Shown in pieces: positions 1,132-33,987 of a stretch of DNA of 35,795 nucleotides. Origin of the DNA: a virus; IMG/VR virus record IMGVR_UViG_3300022602_000247, positions 1 to 35,795 of that record; one strand, written 5' to 3'. Positions within the stretch are counted from its first letter, which is position 1; every line of letters starts with the position of its first letter. The translations under genes and the position numbers were made by a program. The notes under the pieces are model-generated. The model searched no databases. It saw only the letters and a program-made list of their open reading frames with translations, and was not told the origin of the DNA.

Positions 1132-1539
1132 ATGGCATTAGAAACTTTAAAAGGTATAACAAATATTGGTAATTTTAACGTAGTAATCATGGATGAATTG
1201 AGAGAAAAATATCCAGATAAATTCAATCCATCAGGCGCAATGGATTATAAATGGTTCGAAAGCGACATAAGGCCGAGCAATTTTATTTATGTGCGTCATG
1301 ATGTAAATTCTTTATCTTTCACATTACAAAATGGTCCTATTAAAGAAAAAGGAGTGAATGGTTGCCAGGTAGACACAATCATAGAATCTGCAAAAATAAT
1401 CCTTGAAGGCTTAAATAAGCAATTTCCTTGCCGTGAGAATTCATGTGCAATTACCAAATTAGACGAAGCTTTGCATTGGTTACAACATAGGAAAAAAGAT
1501 AGAGAAAAAAGGAATGTAGAAGGTTTTTCAAAAATGTAA
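1132..1539 (+). CDS. Acb2/Tad1-hairpin-like protein, candidate anti-defence sponge
   Basis: The C-terminal half has the layout of a common phage family: a strand with FTLQNGPIKE, then GVNGCQ, a helix, then FPCRENSCAITKLDEALHWL and a basic tail ending in NVEG. From memory, this CREN...AITKLxEAxxWL helical hairpin is grouped with the Acb2/Tad1 hairpin of phage proteins that sequester cyclic-nucleotide or gcADPR signals of CBASS and Thoeris. Many relatives are simply uncharacterised. The start is chosen at 1132 for the GGGGA at 5-base spacing. ATG codons at 1090, 1105 and 1117 are in frame but have poorly spaced sites. This choice gives 135 residues, a plausible length for the family. The sponge function is an inference. 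Confidence 0.5.
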   Translation: MALETLKGITNIGNFNVVIMDELREKYPDKFNPSGAMDYKWFESDIRPSNFIYVRHDVNSLSFTLQNGPIKEKGVNGCQVDTIIESAKIILEGLNKQFPCRENSCAITKLDEALHWLQHRKKDREKRNVEGFSKM

Positions 1540-1541
1540 AT

Positions 1542-1874
1542 ATGGGATTTAAAGCACCTGAAAAATATCGAATAGCTGGAATTGTTGGTTCCAACAACGG
1601 AGCATTTAAAATTCCAAATATTAAAAAAAGAGACACTTTAACTATTATTGCATCTGACGGATTAGGATGGGAGCATGTTTCGGTTAGTAAAAAATACGAA
1701 ATACCAACGTGGAGTGAAATGAACTCAGTAAAAGATTTGTTTTGGGATGATGAAGATTTGGTCATTCAATATCATCCTCGAAAAAGCAAATATGTCAATA
1801 TGCACCCAAATTGCTTGCATATGTGGAGACCTATCGATCAAATAGTTCCAGAACCACAAATTGTACTTATTTAA
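1542..1874 (+). CDS. DUF7694-like phage protein
   Basis: The 110-residue protein has the sequence pattern I associate with the DUF7694 phage family: GWEHVSVS near residue 42, PTWSEM then VKDLFW near 55-67, VIQYHP near 73, and a C-terminal CLHMWRP segment. It begins two bases after the previous stop, in the same coupled string. The family has no established function. The His/Trp-rich conserved residues suggest a binding or catalytic surface, but that is a guess. Confidence 0.7.
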   Translation: MGFKAPEKYRIAGIVGSNNGAFKIPNIKKRDTLTIIASDGLGWEHVSVSKKYEIPTWSEMNSVKDLFWDDEDLVIQYHPRKSKYVNMHPNCLHMWRPIDQIVPEPQIVLI

Positions 1875-1887
1875 AAAGGAAAAATTT

Positions 1888-2214
1888 ATGAAAACAAAAT
1901 CTAAAAAATCTAAGTCATCAAAAAAAATTGTTCTTGTGCGTACATACGCAATGGGAGTTTTTGTAGGGGAATTGCTCCCAGAAAGCACAGAGACTTTGAA
2001 AGTGCTGAAGGACGCTAGACGGATATGGTACTGGGCCGGCGCTAGTTCTTTAAGTGAATTGGCTGTCAATGGCACTGCAAAGCCAGAGGAGTGCAAATTC
2101 CCAGTTGAAGTGCCACGAATTGAACTTACCTCGCCTCAAGGTTTTGAAGTGATTGACGTGAGTGACAAAGCTTACAAATCAATTAAAGGAGTGCCAGTGT
2201 GGACTCAATTTTAA
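1888..2214 (+). CDS. DUF6948-like phage protein
   Basis: The start at 1888 is set by AAGGA about 8 bases upstream. The 108-residue product has a lysine-rich leader and then the pattern VRTYAMGVFVGEL, DARRIWYWAGASSLSELA and CKFPVEVPRIEL, ending in VPVWTQF. I recognise this as the DUF6948 phage family, often found beside DUF7694 genes. Its function is unknown. Its 3' end overlaps the strong Shine-Dalgarno and GTG start of the first Gly-rich repeat gene in another frame. Confidence 0.7.
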   Translation: MKTKSKKSKSSKKIVLVRTYAMGVFVGELLPESTETLKVLKDARRIWYWAGASSLSELAVNGTAKPEECKFPVEVPRIELTSPQGFEVIDVSDKAYKSIKGVPVWTQF

Positions 2215-2303
2215 ATCAAAATTCTAAAAACGGTTACGTTTAGGGCCACGGAGTTGGTAACAGTAACGGTGAAGGTGATGGTTCCGGTTTCGGTTTCGGA
2301 TGA
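2199..2303 (+). pseudogene. Gly-rich (GYG) repeat gene, copy 1, stop at codon 15
   Basis: GTG at 2199 follows a strong AAGGAG at 7-base spacing. The N-terminus VDSILNQNS matches MDSVLKNS of copy 3. After 14 codons there is an in-frame TAG (2241-2243); the frame then continues as Gly-rich repeats to TGA at 2301. The preserved frame after the stop suggests a recent nonsense change, or read-through in a suppressing host. Confidence 0.6.
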
Positions 2304-2311
2304 GAAAAATT

Positions 2312-2539
2312 GTGAATTAAGTTTTAAATGATTTAACTAAAAGCGATGGATCGGTCGAAGAAAACGGAAACGGAAACGAAGACGGTTCCGAATACGATTC
2401 TAGTTACGGTGACGGTTACGGTTGCGGTTACGGTGACGGTTACGGTTACGGTTACGGTGACGGTTTTGTTTTCGGTAACGGCTATGGTTACGGCTCAAGT
2501 TTTGGTTGGGGAAATAACGACGGCAATGGTAATGGCTGA
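2312..2539 (+). pseudogene. Gly-rich (GYG) repeat gene, copy 2, stop at codon 3
   Basis: The start region GTG AAT TAA GTT TTA aligns with ATG GAC TCA GTT TTA of copy 3, so codon 3 has changed from TCA to TAA. The frame is otherwise open for 72 codons of GYGDGYG-type repeats to TGA at 2537. No other in-frame ATG restores it. Without suppression this copy should be silent. Confidence 0.6.
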
Positions 2540-2736
2540 AAGGAATCTATGGACTCAGTTTTAAAAAATTCCGTAGATTACGATTTTGGCGACGGTGCCA
2601 GTTCTGGTTTCAGTTTTTGTGACGGTTCTGGTTACGGTAAAGGCTACGGTAAAGGCTACGGTTACGGTGACGGTTACGGTGACGGTTACGGTTCTGGTTA
2701 CGGTGACGGTTCAGGTTACAAACCCGGTTCAGGTTC
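2396..2736 (+). repeat. Tandem GGTTACGGTGAC-type repeats
   Basis: The DNA is dominated by alternating GGTTAC and GGTGAC hexamers in copies 2 and 3 (densest at 2404-2466 and 2627-2718). They encode GYGDGYG. The other frames read as open TVTV or VTVT stretches, which are artefacts of the repeat. Confidence 0.8.
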
Positions 2737-2788
2737 CGGTTTCGGTTCTAGTTTTGGTGACGGCATAGGTTACAATGCCAGTGGCTGA
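2549..2788 (+). CDS. Gly/Tyr/Asp-repeat protein, copy 3 (79 residues)
   Basis: Intact member of the tandem family. ATG is preceded by AAGGA at 4-base spacing, and the same TGA-AAGGAATCT-start joint recurs before copy 4. The product begins MDSVLKNSVDYDFGDG, then runs through GYGKGYGKGYGYGDGYG-type repeats and ends in an aromatic/Gly tail. It lacks a signal peptide and is acidic. Such repeats occur in phage proteins of unknown role; low-complexity Tyr/Gly sequence can phase-separate or form beta fibres, which is only an inference here. Confidence 0.65.
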   Translation: MDSVLKNSVDYDFGDGASSGFSFCDGSGYGKGYGKGYGYGDGYGDGYGSGYGDGSGYKPGSGSGFGSSFGDGIGYNASG

Positions 2789-2797
2789 AAGGAATCT

Positions 2798-3073
2798 GTG
2801 AGCACAATTCAAAAATTTTGTGGTTTCGAAGACGTATTAGGTGGCGGCTCTCTTGTTAAAGATGGTTGTGGAATTGGTTTTAGTCACGCTTGTATTACCG
2901 GCTTTGGATATTATGATGGTTGCGGGAATGGAGACAATAGCGATTTAGGTTTAAGTGCTAATGAAGGTCAAGGTTATGGTACCGCTTCAAGCTATGGTAC
3001 GAGTTTTGGAGACGGAGATGGCTCAGGTCGTTGTTATGGTGAAGCAGCTAAAGATGGGTTTGGCTATGGCTAA
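2798..3073 (+). CDS. Gly-rich repeat protein, copy 4 (91 residues)
   Basis: GTG start with AAGGA upstream, 9 bases after the TGA of copy 3. The repeats are more diverged (CGIGFSHACITGFGYYDG, GYGTASSYGTSFGDGDG) and Cys is present. The N-terminus STIQKF differs from the MDSVL of the earlier copies. Its stop overlaps the start of copy 5. It is probably an older duplicate. Confidence 0.6.
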   Translation: MSTIQKFCGFEDVLGGGSLVKDGCGIGFSHACITGFGYYDGCGNGDNSDLGLSANEGQGYGTASSYGTSFGDGDGSGRCYGEAAKDGFGYG

Positions 3074-3302
3074 AGAAAAAATTAGTGAGCATTTCGAAAA
3101 CGGATACGGAAGAGGCGCTGCTTGCTCAATGGGTTCAAAGCTTGGATTTGGATACGGAGATGGTTGGAGCGAAGGCTATGGTGATATTAACGGCTCTGGT
3201 TTAAGCTATATGGCCGGGAATAATTTTGGATGTGGTGTAGGTGATGGCAGTTCTTACAATTCCAGTTTAGATTTAAATGAAAACGGTTATGGTAATGGTT
3301 AA
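3066..3302 (+). CDS. Gly-rich repeat protein, copy 5 (78 residues)
   Basis: ATG at 3066 overlaps the end of copy 4. The product begins MAKEKISEHFENGYGRG and continues with LGFGYGDGWSEGYGD and FGCGVGDGSS segments, ending NGYGNG. An upstream in-frame extension reaches 2955, but it reads through the out-of-frame repeats of copy 4 and looks artificial. The function is unknown, as for its paralogues. Confidence 0.55.
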   Translation: MAKEKISEHFENGYGRGAACSMGSKLGFGYGDGWSEGYGDINGSGLSYMAGNNFGCGVGDGSSYNSSLDLNENGYGNG

Positions 3303-3308
3303 ATTTAA

Positions 3309-3978
3309 ATGAGTTTGCATGACGAAGACGTAGAGGCAGGTTTACCCTCATCTACAGGTAGAGGCTCGGGAATGTTGACATCCTCTCTGGCGTAAACGCC
3401 AAAGATTCCCCGAAGGCCTTTTATGCCCAAAAGGCTCCTAAACAAACTTCTAGGAGTTACACCGCTATGATCATTACCCACTGCAGTTTGACAGCGTCTT
3501 CGAGAGACAGTCTAAATTTTGGACTCGAGTCTTTTCTTTTACGTTTAAGCCGCCTATTGGCAAAAATTCTTAAACAGATTAGACTTTTAACGTCTCAAAT
3601 GGTTTCTAACTTTTTAGATTTTACCCACGCTAAGATGATTTTAGAGCGTGGAACCGTATATCTAAATTTCAAAGAACGTAAAACCTTTTATAGTCACTAC
3701 AGTGGCGGAAGTAAATACAAATTGCCCTACGGGCAAATACCTTATATCTCCGCCCTGAAGGGAGGAGTTTTACGGTATGTCTGATAAGTATAGCTGAAGG
3801 TTTTAACAATGGAACCGGCGTAGGTCATCATGACGATCCTGACACAATTTGTTTTTTAGAGTTATGTGAAGGTAAAGGGGAAGGATGTGGTAGCGGCAGA
3901 AACTATCGGGTAGAATTTGGTCATTGCGTAATGGTCATGTCAGGAAAAGGAACTGAAATGGGAGACGGCGATGGCTAA
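3309..3978 (+). pseudogene. Gly-rich repeat gene, copy 6, split by an IS-like insertion
   Basis: The 5' part (ATG 3309 to about 3373) encodes MSLHDEDVEAGLPSSTGRGSG, then runs into the inserted element and stops at 3393. The 3' part (about 3789-3978) resumes as AEGFNNGTGVGHHDD and CEGKGEGCGSG and ends GDGDG-stop, like the paralogues. The two parts are in different frames across the insert. Removing a block whose length is one more than a multiple of three would rejoin them. Confidence 0.55.
3374..3788 (+). mobile_element. IS200/IS605-like relic or non-autonomous element
   Basis: The left end begins GTTGACATCCTCTC and carries the hairpin TGGCGT-aa-ACGCCA (3388-3401). Further hairpins follow: GCCTTTT/AAAAGGC (3416-3435) and CTCCTA/TAGGAG. 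The right end has TTGCCC-tac-GGGCAA (3722-3736) and the imperfect hairpin CTCC-CCCT/AGGG-GGAG around 3748-3767, then TTTTACGG and a TGATAAG-type terminus. Subterminal palindromes and a TTGAC-type boundary are typical of IS200/IS605 elements and their omega-RNA regions. No TnpA or TnpB ORF remains. Boundaries are good to about 5 bp. It interrupts Gly-rich copy 6. Confidence 0.55.
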
Positions 3979-4246
3979 AAAAAAAGAAACTTTAATAATC
4001 ATTTGCGCCGACAAGGGTGTGACGGGAATTAGAGGCCACATTGATTCATGTGGAGAATGTGGGGATGAAATCTTTGTCTCAAAATCATCACTTAATTCTG
4101 TGCTTGAGTATGGTCTGCAAGGTAATCCCATTGCTTTATTTTGTTTCACTTGCGGTGCGAATCAACTCAAAAAAATTAAAGAAATAATACCTTTTACAAA
4201 AGAACAAGTTAACGAAATAGCTGAGCACTGCAATGAAAACGATTGA
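3971..4246 (+). CDS. Zinc-ribbon protein, 91 residues
   Basis: ATG at 3971 overlaps the stop of Gly-rich copy 6. Two cysteine pairs (CGECGDEIFVS near residue 27 and CFTCGA near 58) form a probable zinc ribbon, followed by a helical tail with PFTKEQVNEIAEHC. The layout matches the plus-strand ORF at 6913-7206 (CKSCGEEIWVA then CEEC, then a helical tail), so the two are probably paralogues. The role is unknown; a nucleic-acid or protein adaptor is possible. Confidence 0.6.
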   Translation: MAKKKETLIIICADKGVTGIRGHIDSCGECGDEIFVSKSSLNSVLEYGLQGNPIALFCFTCGANQLKKIKEIIPFTKEQVNEIAEHCNEND

Positions 4247-28169: not shown

Positions 28170-28318
28170 GCTGTAACGTTAAGGTATCATTTTACTATTG
28201 ACAATATGCAAAATATGCTGGCAATTTTTGCATATTCAGGCGCTAAGGGAACGAATTGAACGTTCACAAAGTTTTTCTCGGCCATGAAAAACTTGCTCTA
28301 CCGTTAAGCTACCTTAGC
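28170..28318. other. Structured 149-bp gap with nested inverted repeats
   Basis: An outer pair, TAAGGTA (28180-28186) and TACCTTA (28310-28316), encloses AATATGCAAAA/TTTTGCATATT (28203-28236, 11-bp stem), the palindrome TGAACGTTCA (28257-28266) and AAGTTTTTC/GAAAAACTT (28269-28294, 9-bp stem). This layout can fold as a multi-branched RNA just after the MuF stop and before the next start. No T-run follows, so a plain terminator is unlikely. Confidence 0.5.
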
Positions 28319-30340
28319 CTATTTCTGATTCTTAAAGATCAATGGAGCTGCTCTGCATCGACAATTGTGAATAATTGTGTTATTTGAAAAATACCAATTA
28401 TTTTTAGTTTCAAGGTTAAAAACATGACCAGAAAAGAATCTCGTTTGCGTTTGGACCACGCGTGTACTCTTTATAAAACTAGCAAGCTCACTTTGTATGC
28501 CATCGGAAAGAAACTTGGCATTTCTCCCGATCGAATCGGAAAGGAACTCCGCACTCAAGGTATTAAAATTGAAAGGAGACAACAAGTTTGGAAGAAATTT
28601 GATATTATTCAAGAGGCTATTGACGATTATAAGAAAGGGATGAGTGAACTTGCTGTTTCTAGAAAATTTAATATTTGTAGAACTACTATCAGAAGTTGGT
28701 TGATTCAAAAAAACATTCATATCAGAAGTGGCTCCGAAGCTAACATTCTTCGAATGAAAAGAATGACTAGACAAGAGCGTCTCAAATTGACTGAGAAAGC
28801 TCATGAAGCTATCAGAGTCAAAGGCTTGCCTATTGAAGGTCGTTTGAAAAGAGCGAAAAACAGAAGTTTCAAGAGAGGACCGTTGGAAACTGAACTTTTT
28901 GAGTTTTTCAAAAAACTTAATTACCCCGTCGAACAACAAGTCCCTGTTCATACTTATAATATCGACTTTGTCATTTTTAATAACATCGCCGTGGAAGTCC
29001 GTTTCGGACAAAAGGCGAGTTTGTATTGGAATAAAAAAAGAAAGCGCATTAAATATTTGCTCAATGCTGGATTCCACGTATTCGCTGTTCATTTCTTTTC
29101 CAAAGACGTTTTTGACTATGCTTTGAAAAATATAGTCGCCGACTTGGATATCCTTCGCACCAATCCATCCCCTATTCGTCAATATAGGATGGTTACCTGT
29201 CGACTGATGGACCATATTATTGTCACTAATGAGAAAGGTCAATTCACCCGAAAAAGTACGCCTAAATACTTTGTTTATAGAACAGCTGAGAGTTATCAAG
29301 TTTGAACCCGGAATACAATTGTAGTCGTCGCCAGGGTTCAGATTGTGATTAGGTCCAGGCTTTTCAATCCCCCCCGGTTTTGGAGTCCCATCGCGATTAA
29401 TTTCTCTTGTCCCATCCCATGGGAAAACTTTAAGATCACAAATGCCGTGATCATATCGAACATTGCCTTTAGTGTGCTGTTTTGGAGTTTTATCATGTGG
29501 ATGATTGGCGCATCTCCATTCGTACCCAAATGAACCCGCAGAGGTATATCTAGCTTTAGAATAGGCCGCCATCATAAGCCTTGATTCTTGCCTCGCTAAA
29601 AACTTAGCTTTGTTTTTCGCTTCTTCTGCCGAACCTTCTATGAACTTTGTAATCTTGTAAATTCTTGATTCGAGAAAATCTCTTCGCTCCCCTTGCTGAA
29701 TAAGCTGAGCTAGGTCTTTTCTCATGCTTACGATCTGTTCTTGAGTCCATCCTTTAATGTAAAGCTTAAGGTTATCATTATAATCTTTCGCAATTGCCAG
29801 CTGCTCGGATTCTTTAAGCTTAGGCATGACCGCTATTTTTTTAGCATTTTTCTCAAATGACTTATCTGCTTTGAATAGAGCATCTCCAAAGAGGTCTTTG
29901 GCGCTAAAATGCTTCATCATCATTTCAGGGTTATATTTCTCCAGCCACCTATCCATGCGCAGAATGTTGTCTTTAATTTTCTTTTCAGCAAAAAAAATCA
30001 CGCTTTTGATATCGGTGGGGACTTTAGACCATTCTAGTTTGTACGATTGAGTAGACCTATCCCACTTCGCGCCTAAACCTTTTAGTTTTTTAGACGTGGA
30101 AGCATTGAACTTGCCTCTAAATGCTCCGGCGGAATAAAAGATCTTACCGCTCATCAAAGATTTGGCAAATCCTTCGTTAACTTTTTGGCTAGAGTTTTTT
30201 AAAAGGTTTTTTGGGAATTCAATCTCTGCTAGAAGAGGCCCATAAAAAAATTCCTTCCAAAGTTTAAGGATTTTCTCTTCTATAGCGTCAAAGTTTTCCC
30301 AAGCCTCAGGAATAGGAATGAGTGTTTCTACTTTACTCAT
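28319..30340 (-). CDS. MuF-type minor head protein with intein
   Basis: The 341-residue N-extein has helical head-protein regions and the MuF-type stretch FLARQESRLMMAAYSKARY, WRCANHPHD, NHNLNPGDDYN. The 14-residue C-extein is CRCRAAPLIFKNQK. Together they restore the family motif PGDDYNCRCRA. The whole 673-residue ORF includes a 318-residue intein between these parts; the spliced protein would be 355 residues. The gene lies between portal and protease genes. Its start overlaps the Fis-like gene by four bases. Confidence 0.85.
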   Translation of the reverse strand: MSKVETLIPIPEAWENFDAIEEKILKLWKEFFYGPLLAEIEFPKNLLKNSSQKVNEGFAKSLMSGKIFYSAGAFRGKFNASTSKKLKGLGAKWDRSTQSYKLEWSKVPTDIKSVIFFAEKKIKDNILRMDRWLEKYNPEMMMKHFSAKDLFGDALFKADKSFEKNAKKIAVMPKLKESEQLAIAKDYNDNLKLYIKGWTQEQIVSMRKDLAQLIQQGERRDFLESRIYKITKFIEGSAEEAKNKAKFLARQESRLMMAAYSKARYTSAGSFGYEWRCANHPHDKTPKQHTKGNVRYDHGICDLKVFPWDGTREINRDGTPKPGGIEKPGPNHNLNPGDDYNCIPGSNLITLSCSINKVFRRTFSGELTFLISDNNMVHQSTGNHPILTNRGWIGAKDIQVGDYIFQSIVKNVFGKEMNSEYVESSIEQIFNALSFFIPIQTRLLSETDFHGDVIKNDKVDIISMNRDLLFDGVIKFFEKLKKFSFQRSSLETSVFRSFQTTFNRQAFDSDSFMSFLSQFETLLSSHSFHSKNVSFGATSDMNVFLNQPTSDSSSTNIKFSRNSKFTHPFLIIVNSLLNNIKFLPNLLSPFNFNTLSAEFLSDSIGRNAKFLSDGIQSELASFIKSTRVVQTQTRFFSGHVFNLETKNNWYFSNNTIIHNCRCRAAPLIFKNQK
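28364..29317 (-). other. Intein in MuF (318 residues)
   Basis: Splicing block A begins Cys1 (CIPGSNLITLS), block B is STGNHPILTNRGW with Thr40 and His43, and the C-terminal block is GHVFNLETKNNWYFSNNTII ending His-Asn before Cys+1. All splicing residues (Cys1, Thr40, His43, His317, Asn318, Cys+1) are present. Between blocks B and F the minus-strand product is Ser/Phe/Asn-rich with no LAGLIDADG or HNH motif. The nuclease is instead on the other strand. Confidence 0.85.
28424..29305 (+). CDS. Vsr/DUF559-like homing endonuclease antisense within the MuF intein
   Basis: Plus-strand ORF of 293 residues with AAGG about 9 bases before ATG. Residues 20-50 form a helix-turn-helix (LYAIGKKLGISPDRIGKEL), 60-100 a second (MSELAVSRKFNICRTTIRSW). 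Residues 150-225 hold a PD-(D/E)XK core: Glu155, Gln171, Asp181 in YNIDFVIF, Glu191 in IAVEV, then RIKYLLNAGFHVFAVHF. This matches Vsr-like and DUF559 nucleases, some of which are homing enzymes linked to inteins. It covers codons 5 to 298 of the intein on the opposite strand in exact codon register. Confidence 0.85.
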   Translation: MTRKESRLRLDHACTLYKTSKLTLYAIGKKLGISPDRIGKELRTQGIKIERRQQVWKKFDIIQEAIDDYKKGMSELAVSRKFNICRTTIRSWLIQKNIHIRSGSEANILRMKRMTRQERLKLTEKAHEAIRVKGLPIEGRLKRAKNRSFKRGPLETELFEFFKKLNYPVEQQVPVHTYNIDFVIFNNIAVEVRFGQKASLYWNKKRKRIKYLLNAGFHVFAVHFFSKDVFDYALKNIVADLDILRTNPSPIRQYRMVTCRLMDHIIVTNEKGQFTRKSTPKYFVYRTAESYQV

Positions 30341-30923: not shown

Positions 30924-32453
30924 CTATTTGTTAAATTCCAAAGTCCTGTCATCTGGGCCAACTTTCATTTTAGACGGAGTATCCATATCTTTGCGGCCCA
31001 TGCCTTCGTCTTGAGCATCTTTAGGCTTGTAAGGGTTCTGGATGCCTTCTTTAACTACATTGCCTTTGTCTGGATTGAGTAAGTCAGTTGGGTCAAGGTT
31101 CACGTCAAAAATTTGACCTTGGTTGCAAGCATCGATTGCCTTGTCCAAAGGCATGAGGCCCATAGTCCATGCCTCTTTTACTCGGTTCCATTTTGAATTT
31201 TTAACACTTTCTTCTTGCTCCGCTGACAACACACGCAAAGGTTTAAATTCTAGTTCCAGATCGTCTGGAATGAATCCAAACAATACTTGGCATTTAATTT
31301 CTGCCGTGCGAAGTAAAGTGTACTTTAATGAATCACGCACATCGCTTTCAATCATGCCGTTGTAAACTTCGAGCTGATCTTGGGATGACTGATTTAAGCC
31401 GCTAGGTCCCTCACCGAAAAGTTTAATCATTGGCATTCTCATGTCCGATGCCACTTGCCTACGGATTGAGTCTAGCGCTTCCCCAAAACCAGCAAAATTG
31501 ATTTGTTTGTGGTCCCACTCATCGTCAGCGTCTAAAACAAGAGCGTTTTGATAGTTTTTAAGATAGTTATTCTTTTTGATGGTGTTCATAATTTTATTGA
31601 ACCCATCGGGGTTGAACATCATGTCTTTGAGGTTTTTAAACTTATAATAATCAATTTTGAACTCGTCTAAAAGTTCATAAAGCACATCGACACTTTTAAA
31701 GTTTTGATTTAATGACCTTACTAGAATTTCTACGATGGAAAGTCCCCATCCGAAGAGTCTTGGTCGGACAAAGCTAGGAGCCTCAATCCCATTAATTTTC
31801 ATCACTCTGCTTTTGTGAAGCTTGTAGCCGTAGTAATTAAAGTATTCGTAGTCTAGCTGCTGAGAAGTTGGGTCGTAGTTTTCCGAACTTCCAGAACTCT
31901 CAAAATATAGCTCCCACATATCGGCAGCTTTAAACTTAACGTCCGAATCTAAAGTTAAGCTTTCGATATCAAGAGGTTCCTCTGGGTCTTGATCGCTCAT
32001 GATCACAACGCCAGCGCCACCAAATAAGCGCTTCCAGATATGAGCATAACAATTGCTTTCTATATCTTTATCTCTGCTCATAGAGATTTGAAGTTCTTGA
32101 ATCTGTTCTTGTTCTATTTGACTCGATTTAAACTTAATTCCTCCCCTGATAGCGTCTTGAACAGGGGTCACGCACAGAGTGTAAACAAGTCCGCTTTCGA
32201 CAAAGAGCTGCGAAATGAGAGGTCTAAAAAATGTGACTAAGGTCCATCTCATGTTGCGAAAAAGAGTAGTCGGTTGCTCTACTTGTTCGGTGAAAAGTCC
32301 ATTTGAGAAATTTGACAATCCAAAAGGATTAAATTGATAAGCACCGTTGCCAAAGCCTAACGAAGTATTTTTAACAATTTCATTTCTAAGGATATCTCTA
32401 CTGTTTACAGGGTTTCCAAATTGATCAACTAATCCATAGTTGTGAGATGCCAT
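30924..32453 (-). CDS. Portal protein (DUF1073-like)
   Basis: The 509-residue protein has SGLVYTLCVTPVQDAIRGGI, then WKRLFGGAGVVIMSD, the helix region (LVRSLNQNFKSVDVLYELLD), and the signature MRMPMIKLFGEGPSGLNQSS followed by DQLEVYNGMIESDVRDSLKY. This fits the DUF1073-type portals of contractile-tail phages. It is next to the large terminase and its start uses a GGGGGG ribosome-binding tract. The acidic/Lys-rich C-terminus is typical. Confidence 0.85.
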   Translation of the reverse strand: MASHNYGLVDQFGNPVNSRDILRNEIVKNTSLGFGNGAYQFNPFGLSNFSNGLFTEQVEQPTTLFRNMRWTLVTFFRPLISQLFVESGLVYTLCVTPVQDAIRGGIKFKSSQIEQEQIQELQISMSRDKDIESNCYAHIWKRLFGGAGVVIMSDQDPEEPLDIESLTLDSDVKFKAADMWELYFESSGSSENYDPTSQQLDYEYFNYYGYKLHKSRVMKINGIEAPSFVRPRLFGWGLSIVEILVRSLNQNFKSVDVLYELLDEFKIDYYKFKNLKDMMFNPDGFNKIMNTIKKNNYLKNYQNALVLDADDEWDHKQINFAGFGEALDSIRRQVASDMRMPMIKLFGEGPSGLNQSSQDQLEVYNGMIESDVRDSLKYTLLRTAEIKCQVLFGFIPDDLELEFKPLRVLSAEQEESVKNSKWNRVKEAWTMGLMPLDKAIDACNQGQIFDVNLDPTDLLNPDKGNVVKEGIQNPYKPKDAQDEGMGRKDMDTPSKMKVGPDDRTLEFNK

Positions 32454-32475: not shown

Positions 32476-33987
32476 CTATTTACTCATCGCTTCAATCGTT
32501 GACAGCGTATCCGTTGCAAAAGCAAATTTAATCCCGTCGATCAACGAATCACAGAAATCGTCGTGTTTCCCTTTTGGGAAAGCAAGGCATTCATTTACGA
32601 GTGCCTCTTTGTTATGAATATTTTCATTGATCACAAGTTTTACATTGCTCAAGTATGGAACAATGTTAAGCGCCCTTTGTGTTTTATTCAAGCGCCGATC
32701 TTGGAAAAACTCATGCACTTGTTCTTCGGAAGGCATAACAATCCCAATGCGCCTAAATTTCGTATTCAGATAGATACCGTGACCTTTTGGCTCAATGTAC
32801 GCGCCTCTAAAGCCATATTTAGAATGTTTTTTGACAAATAGGCTTGCGGGACCTTCTATATCTGCTGCTTTGATTCTATCGCGCAGTACGTCAATAACTA
32901 AAAGTTGACTTCCGATCACACCGAAGCAAGTAAACACCGTAAAATCATTTTCTTGCTTATCGTTGTAAGCTGTATCAGCAGTAATAAATGTGTAATCAAA
33001 TTGCTTCGGCATTTTGGCATAATAAAACATGCCAACATTAAACACTGATCCGCCGTCTGGACGTGGATCTTGTTGATATAACGATGACCACGCTCTAGGC
33101 CCAATAGAAGCTTTAATTTTTTTTAATTGTTCAATGTTATATTTTTGAGGCCATAAAGCTTCCCCTATTTCTCTGGGATCTTCAGGATTAGAATTGTCTA
33201 CTTTTATTGCAGGGAGGTTTACTACTTCCCATTGAATTGCATCTTTTTCAACTTTCATTAAATCTAACAAACGAGAACTTAATTCCGATTCATGCCAACG
33301 AGTTTGAGTAATAAGAATTTGTCCTTTTCTGCCAGTTTTTAAATCTGTTTCTAATCGTGTAAATAAATCGTTATTATAAAAATTCCAAAGCCGTTCTCTA
33401 AAAGCTTCTGAATCCGCTATTTCTCGACCTTTTACAGGGTCATCAATAATTATGAATGAACTTCCAAAGCCTGTAAATGAACCTCCCACGCCTTGCCCTA
33501 GAAATTTTCCTTGCCTTCCCACAATATGGTGCTCTGACGCGTTTCTAGTCCCAATTGCATACCTTGTCCCAGCGGGATAAATTTTTGTACCGGGAAATAA
33601 TTCTTGATACTCTTTAGATTCAATGATTTTTTGAACATCTAAACACATTGCGCCAGCAAGAGAATCTAAATAACTTACTGACATAATATTTTTATCTGGA
33701 TAAAGTCCGTGAATATATGCAGGTAAATGCCTAGCTACTAGCTGGCTTTTCCCATGCCTCGGAGCTAGAAATACCATTAAATAAGGTATTTCTCCTTTAA
33801 CAAATTTATCTAATTTTTCACAAATTAATTTATGATGCCAATTTACTTGGTAATCATTTTTAGTATATTTAACAAATTCAAGAAAAGAGCTTCGAGCTAT
33901 TCTTTTATTTTTTTCTTCAATTATTCGAATAAGGTCTATTTTTTCATTTCTTATTAATTCGGAATTTTGTCGTGATGATTTGTTCAT
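32476..33987 (-). CDS. terL: Terminase large subunit
   Basis: Walker A is APRHGKS (residues 75-81), Walker B is FIIIDDP (178-184), and the coupling motif is TQTRWHESELSSRL. The RNase-H-like nuclease domain has Asp338 (ITADTAYND), Glu399 (AYIEPKG) and a C-terminal GKHDDFCDSL. It packages DNA into the head through the portal. The ATG at 33987 has AGGA upstream within the 3' end of the HNH gene, so the two overlap by 44 bases. Confidence 0.95.
   Translation of the reverse strand: MNKSSRQNSELIRNEKIDLIRIIEEKNKRIARSSFLEFVKYTKNDYQVNWHHKLICEKLDKFVKGEIPYLMVFLAPRHGKSQLVARHLPAYIHGLYPDKNIMSVSYLDSLAGAMCLDVQKIIESKEYQELFPGTKIYPAGTRYAIGTRNASEHHIVGRQGKFLGQGVGGSFTGFGSSFIIIDDPVKGREIADSEAFRERLWNFYNNDLFTRLETDLKTGRKGQILITQTRWHESELSSRLLDLMKVEKDAIQWEVVNLPAIKVDNSNPEDPREIGEALWPQKYNIEQLKKIKASIGPRAWSSLYQQDPRPDGGSVFNVGMFYYAKMPKQFDYTFITADTAYNDKQENDFTVFTCFGVIGSQLLVIDVLRDRIKAADIEGPASLFVKKHSKYGFRGAYIEPKGHGIYLNTKFRRIGIVMPSEEQVHEFFQDRRLNKTQRALNIVPYLSNVKLVINENIHNKEALVNECLAFPKGKHDDFCDSLIDGIKFAFATDTLSTIEAMSK

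Follow-up and report, generated by a model that had tools for sequence, protein, structure and literature searches.

Introduction

EDxHD/Vsr nucleases were reportedly described by Dassa et al. in 2009 as free-standing genes between the halves of split inteins. In the open-access literature, antisense endonuclease genes were found in group I introns only; examples such as the homing endonuclease I-DsqI of Didymium come from nuclear introns of this group (PMC9548176). The same literature yielded no antisense endonuclease within an intein, so that two-way coding of an intein and a nuclease is, as far as we found in open-access papers, undescribed.

Here we analyse such an arrangement in a phage head gene. 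The original prediction, made from one sequence, knew of no established example of a nested antisense nuclease in an unsplit intein. That agrees with the literature, but the prediction missed that the locus belongs to a large conserved phage family and is not a single oddity. The best explanation, and in our judgement very probably the right one, is a homing intein that has its endonuclease gene antisense to its own coding sequence. At the level of sequence this architecture is established; protein splicing, expression of the nuclease, the cleavage site and homing itself are predicted.

The host gene and its intein

The window (the whole stretch of DNA analysed) is a 35.8-kb virus record in which terL (32476-33987), a portal gene (30924-32453) and a MuF-type head morphogenesis gene (28319-30340) all lie on the minus strand. 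The MuF ORF, coding for a 673-aa precursor with an intein, matches PHROG 324 and 4529, both head morphogenesis/minor head protein families, and the head protein of Bdellovibrio phage phi1422 is 35% identical to it over the entire N-extein. The phi1422 gene, its closest relative, is intein-free at the same point (GRDYN^CRCMARPIVRF and a stop; here and below ^ marks the junction). Matching to this gene places the 341-aa N-extein, ending in ...NPGDDYN, at 29318-30340, followed on the same strand by the intein of 318 aa, Cys1 to Asn318, at 28364-29317 and by the C-extein, CRCRAAPLIFKNQK and a stop codon, at 28319-28363. The C(R/K)(C/S) that follows the intein is kept in nearly all relatives. The predicted spliced MuF has 341 + 14 = 355 aa. 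The host gene is a single uninterrupted ORF (28319-30340) and is thus neither fractured nor part of a split intein.

The sequence marks of a class 1 Hint intein are present in the window: Cys1, the TxxH of block B (T40-G-N-H43, 29189-29206, minus strand), blocks F and G (GHVFNLE...IIHN, 28364-28435, minus strand) with the C-terminal Asn, and Cys+1. The 46 aligned inteins all have Cys1, T40, H43 and the terminal Asn, and the junction with the C-extein reads IHN^C in the window and SN^C in many relatives. Pfam Intein_splicing matches residues 13-318 of the window intein at 2.2e-6, with 28 bits and so below the Pfam cut-off of 35.8, and it matches 30 of the 37 intein family members. In the AlphaFold model the two ends of the intein reach pLDDT 85-98 and form a Hint fold, which VIA-align superposes on the Mtu RecA intein with Z 13.2 and rmsd 1.5 over 107 residues. 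By this model the window intein has the Hint fold, and its stretch 143-270 (28508-28891, minus strand), which lies opposite the HTH region of the nuclease gene, is probably unstructured, with pLDDT below 50 over residues 143-266 and 268-270.

Two inverted repeats (28203-28236, 16 nt, 88%; 28269-28294, 9 nt, perfect) sit in the gap downstream of MuF and upstream of the antisense nuclease; they are a possible terminator or operator. The profile of PHROG 15127 ('head protein') covers the whole intein, including its antisense-coded middle.

The antisense nuclease

The plus strand of the intein holds a gene of 293 aa at 28424-29305, with HTH domains and an EDxHD/Vsr-like nuclease. Two predicted HTH DNA-binding domains (about residues 7-45 and 59-96; 28442-28711) appear as helices in the model, and Pfam HTH_7/HTH_23 occur in 20-22 of 34 nuclease members (HTH_7 in 22), with a best value of 2e-13; NUMOD1 occurs in two. 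The nuclease also matches MTES_1575/DUF559 and HTH families. As a single query it found no match in the PDB, while a profile of 34 relatives reached the catalytic domain of I-Bth0305I (3r3p) at 1.3e-7. The AlphaFold model, at pLDDT 90.2, aligns in VIA-align with Vsr (Z 11.3) and I-Bth0305I (Z 11.0). Foldseek alone gave weak E-values for the models, and VIA-align was used to resolve these cases; all structure models were built from the window and IMG/VR rows only. The putative catalytic core is E155, Y178-N-x-D181 and E191 (28886-28996, plus strand): among 44 members Y178, D181 and E191 are invariant, E155 is present in at least 90% and N179 is conserved. Many relatives have the His of a GGGWH motif, absent from the window copy. 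Profiles and model together point to a Vsr/PD-(D/E)XK fold.

The original prediction had called a complete intein in MuF from its Cys1, block B TxxH, C-terminal His-Asn and Cys+1, and an HTH plus Vsr/DUF559-like nuclease opposite it. Family profiles and predicted folds agree with both calls, and the search that it proposed with the two translations returned Pfam Intein_splicing for one and MTES_1575/DUF559 with HTH for the other.

Codon register and avoided stop codons

The two codon registers coincide: reverse-complementing intein codon 299-i gives nuclease codon i. The nuclease stop TGA is the complement of intein Ser5 (TCA) and its ATG the complement of His298 (CAT), as predicted originally together with the coordinates and the 293-codon ORF, all of which hold. 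Only the codons of intein residues 5 and 311, just beyond the nuclease ends, read as plus-strand stops. The nuclease had been taken as a replacement of the usual insert between blocks B and F. Its antisense nesting stands, but the gene starts within block F and also covers the greater part of the Hint N-terminal domain, running past blocks A and B. True double coding extends through the splicing domain.

Codons TTA, CTA and TCA in the nuclease would close the intein frame; there are none, where codon usage in the window itself predicts 14.4 (log10 P = -8.1). For 21 other window genes, the longest run that stays open in the codon-aligned antisense frame measures 29-117 codons. These two results rule out chance antisense openness, and a sequencing artefact is ruled out by the dozens of independent records.

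No intein-frame stop codon occurs in 15 divergent intein-borne nucleases. Free-standing copies from Acinetobacter phages carry 12 such codons in IME285 (10.3 expected) and 13 in locus L045, so openness is not inherent to the nuclease family. Nuclease queries gathered 89 distinct loci, and in 86 of them the nuclease match is free of sense-frame stops; the three exceptions are two intein-free free-standing Acinetobacter copies and one frameshifted contig in which both frames are broken. Homologues with one strand kept and the other broken, which would have spoken against the original prediction, are therefore not the pattern seen. Pooled over 187 clusters, the stop-avoided codons number 0 against 1217 expected, a count that is partly circular because openness on both strands was the criterion for choosing the clusters; the 86 of 89 is free of this bias.

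At about 1183-1860 of locus L065 a single frameshift seems to disrupt both the intein and the nuclease, apparently an assembly error or a decayed copy.

Start signals and selection on both strands

A Shine-Dalgarno-like AAGG (28412-28415, plus strand) lies 8 nt 5′ of the nuclease ATG (28424-28426), complementary to Asn-Leu codons of block F, and most relatives have GAGG or AAGG in the same place. The position of the start is also kept: in 49 of 67 non-redundant inteins it lies opposite codon 20 from the end. In 51 of 53 cases the His codon that pairs with it is CAT (24.5 expected, log10 P ~ -21), and the remaining two are CAC, giving a GTG start to the nuclease. The adjacent Leu codon is CTC or CTT in 49 of 57 (18.6 expected), which puts GAGG or AAGG on the opposite strand at the spacing of a Shine-Dalgarno sequence. 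On this evidence of codon choice in the intein, the nuclease start and its Shine-Dalgarno sequence are maintained. A sigma-70 promoter scan of the plus strand for the nuclease gave nothing above chance.

Overlap-aware dNN/dSN for the nuclease is 0.12 (0.07-0.21) in the Klebsiella set and 0.13 (0.08-0.19) in Guernseyvirinae; dNN/dNS for the intein is 0.19 and 0.28, respectively. Over eight pairs, changes in the middle region fall at nuclease third positions more often than at first (325 versus 213), while in the Hint N-terminal part intein third positions are favoured (83 versus 70; Fisher p = 0.0016 for the reversal). Judged by these substitutions, constraint passes at the Hint end from the nuclease frame to that of the intein, and both strands are under selection. 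Because the two frames share their second codon positions, the dN/dS signal of the intein frame is weak in the middle region.

Family, distribution and mobility

Searches by tblastn from either protein led to the same places, in 72-89 phage records. Members include Aaphi23, S1249, MSW-3, Klebsiella Jedunavirus-like phages, several Vibrio phages, Idiomarinaceae 1N2-2, the Gordonia phages Malisha, Vivi2 and Kewpiedoll, Guernseyvirinae of Salmonella, Escherichia and Pantoea, and a Helicobacter prophage. A Jerseyvirus paper notes the intein and puts homing endonucleases elsewhere (PMC8425127). Phage records and IMG/VR together yielded 339 loci, of which about 328 have an intein with a codon-aligned antisense nuclease (326 by automatic classing and two, L252 and L257, by hand), falling into 190 nuclease clusters at 70% identity. 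The window nuclease as a single sequence found no match in IMG/VR, its copy being divergent; mixed nuclease alignments had no conserved block for searching, and subgroup alignments worked. Short free-standing Vsr-like nucleases of about 146 aa, weak relatives in intein-free surroundings, were seen at about 2937-3375 of loci L333-L337.

Insertion is at one MuF site, before C(R/K)(C/S) near the gene end, in stand-alone and in portal-fused MuF genes. Homologues with and without the insert, which the original prediction had proposed to look for, both exist, the intein-free ones being phi1422, Salmonella phage ER12 and Escherichia phage 26. The last two have the exact empty site (KGPMPPAHPN^CRSTTAPVIS in ER12), and LSPA1 has an 816-bp intein at the junction that is empty in ER12. 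Vivi2 and Kewpiedoll have exteins 100% identical over 250 aa with inteins only 36% identical; for Snoke and fEg-Eco06 the figures are 95% and 27%. Near-identical host genes with unrelated inteins at the same site mean that the cassette is mobile, and these comparisons point to horizontal movement independent of the host gene.

Proposed mechanism and alternatives

Homing would best account for the nuclease family, its fold, the empty sites and the replacement of one cassette by another. On the late minus strand, the MuF precursor would carry a Hint domain made of two intein segments, residues 1 to about 125 and about 278 to 318, which would excise itself and ligate the 341-aa to the 14-aa extein. 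On the plus strand, the nuclease would be translated from its own Shine-Dalgarno sequence and ATG inside the complement of block F, its reading frame ending just within the N-terminal end of the intein. It would bind DNA through its HTH domains and cut intein-free MuF at the site encoding ...N^C(R/K)C, and repair from an intein-bearing template would copy intein and nuclease jointly.

The nuclease might instead be expressed mainly for the exclusion of intein-free competitor phages (marker exclusion) or for antisense control of MuF, with homing secondary. Free-standing phage endonucleases do mediate exclusion, and convergent transcription could damp MuF. Homing, however, predicts what was found, alleles that lack the intein and nearly identical host genes with unrelated cassettes at a shared site, and either function could coexist with it; we regard this reading as unlikely. 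We give still less credence to the idea that the nuclease alone matters and that the intein frame is a leftover without splicing. The middle of that frame is indeed predicted to be disordered and is weakly constrained, but its splicing residues are invariant in the 46 inteins, the sense frame is open wherever the intein is present and closed where the nuclease is free-standing, and MuF would otherwise be disrupted. Least credible is that the antisense ORF is a passive, unexpressed shadow of a conserved intein: codon-aligned antisense frames do inherit some conservation and openness, and the promoter scan found no good plus-strand promoter, but this reading is already contradicted by matches to families of nucleases and HTH proteins and to a homing endonuclease of solved structure, all built from unrelated genes, by a nuclease that folds at pLDDT 90 where the intein-frame middle does not, by the maintained start and Shine-Dalgarno sequence, by the concentration of middle-region changes at nuclease third positions and by free-standing homologues.

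Origin and other overprinted inteins

Free-standing nucleases were seen at two Acinetobacter phage loci, L005 (455-1348, plus strand, with 1342-2055, minus strand) and L045. In IME285 and L045 the nuclease homologue is free-standing and convergent with an intein-free MuF gene, overlapping its last bases, in the same orientation as the embedded form and in nearly the same place. From its sequence, this form may be the ancestor, a nuclease beside its target that later came to overlap a mini-intein, or it may be a derivative that followed loss of the intein.

Locus L338 has a MuF intein (2664-3776, minus strand) with an antisense DUF559 nuclease (2800-3588, plus strand) in a different antisense register; this nuclease lies entirely between Hint blocks B and F and has a strong Shine-Dalgarno sequence, AAGGAGG. 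A search for relatives found L338 itself as the sole match, and its arrangement is probably of independent origin. In Corynebacterium phage phi673 (L340), the helicase gene (1684-4194, plus strand) has an intein with PT-HINT above cut-off, and a DUF559 nuclease ORF (2318-2953, plus strand; E 1e-11) lies in the +1 frame on the same strand as this intein. It thus seems that inteins acquired an overprinted nuclease on more than one occasion. We lean towards seeing such overprinting as a solution to nuclease carriage that inteins have reached repeatedly, and overlapping-frame homing endonucleases as a strategy general among phage mobile elements and missed by pipelines.

Significance and comparison with known systems

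The locus would represent a widespread situation in which two unrelated, well-folded proteins come from opposite strands of one DNA in exact codon register, with selection acting on both, and a natural test bed for sense-antisense coding. Splicing and mobility would reside in separate proteins from one DNA, each of which could be disabled by changes silent in the other. Annotation pipelines display the head protein only, so nucleases have been missed in Salmonella, Klebsiella, Vibrio and Gordonia phages; PHROG 15127 has probably absorbed intein-bearing MuF genes, and antisense enzymes are missed by annotation as a result. The overlooked enzymes are a potentially large set of rare-cutting nucleases.

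The locus shares the Hint fold, an insertion between blocks B and F, a conserved site and intein-free alleles with inteins that carry an in-frame LAGLIDADG or HNH endonuclease (PI-PkoII, PI-PfuI). It differs from them in that its endonuclease is a polypeptide of its own, with a gene on the other strand that overlaps much of the Hint domain, and in that the in-frame insert is the antisense translation of the nuclease and is largely predicted to be disordered. With the IME285 and L045 loci it has in common a homologous nuclease antisense to MuF, which there abuts the 3′ end of the gene, but their MuF is intein-free and the strand opposite the nuclease is full of stops. Nuclease fold and family are those of the EDxHD/Vsr homing endonucleases (I-Bth0305I); genes of this kind in split inteins fracture the intein, whereas the MuF intein is unsplit, with its nuclease antisense within. 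Group I introns of the I-DsqI type likewise have an endonuclease gene on the opposite strand of a self-splicing element, but that element is an RNA intron with the gene in a peripheral RNA insertion, whereas the DNA of the MuF intein codes for two proteins.
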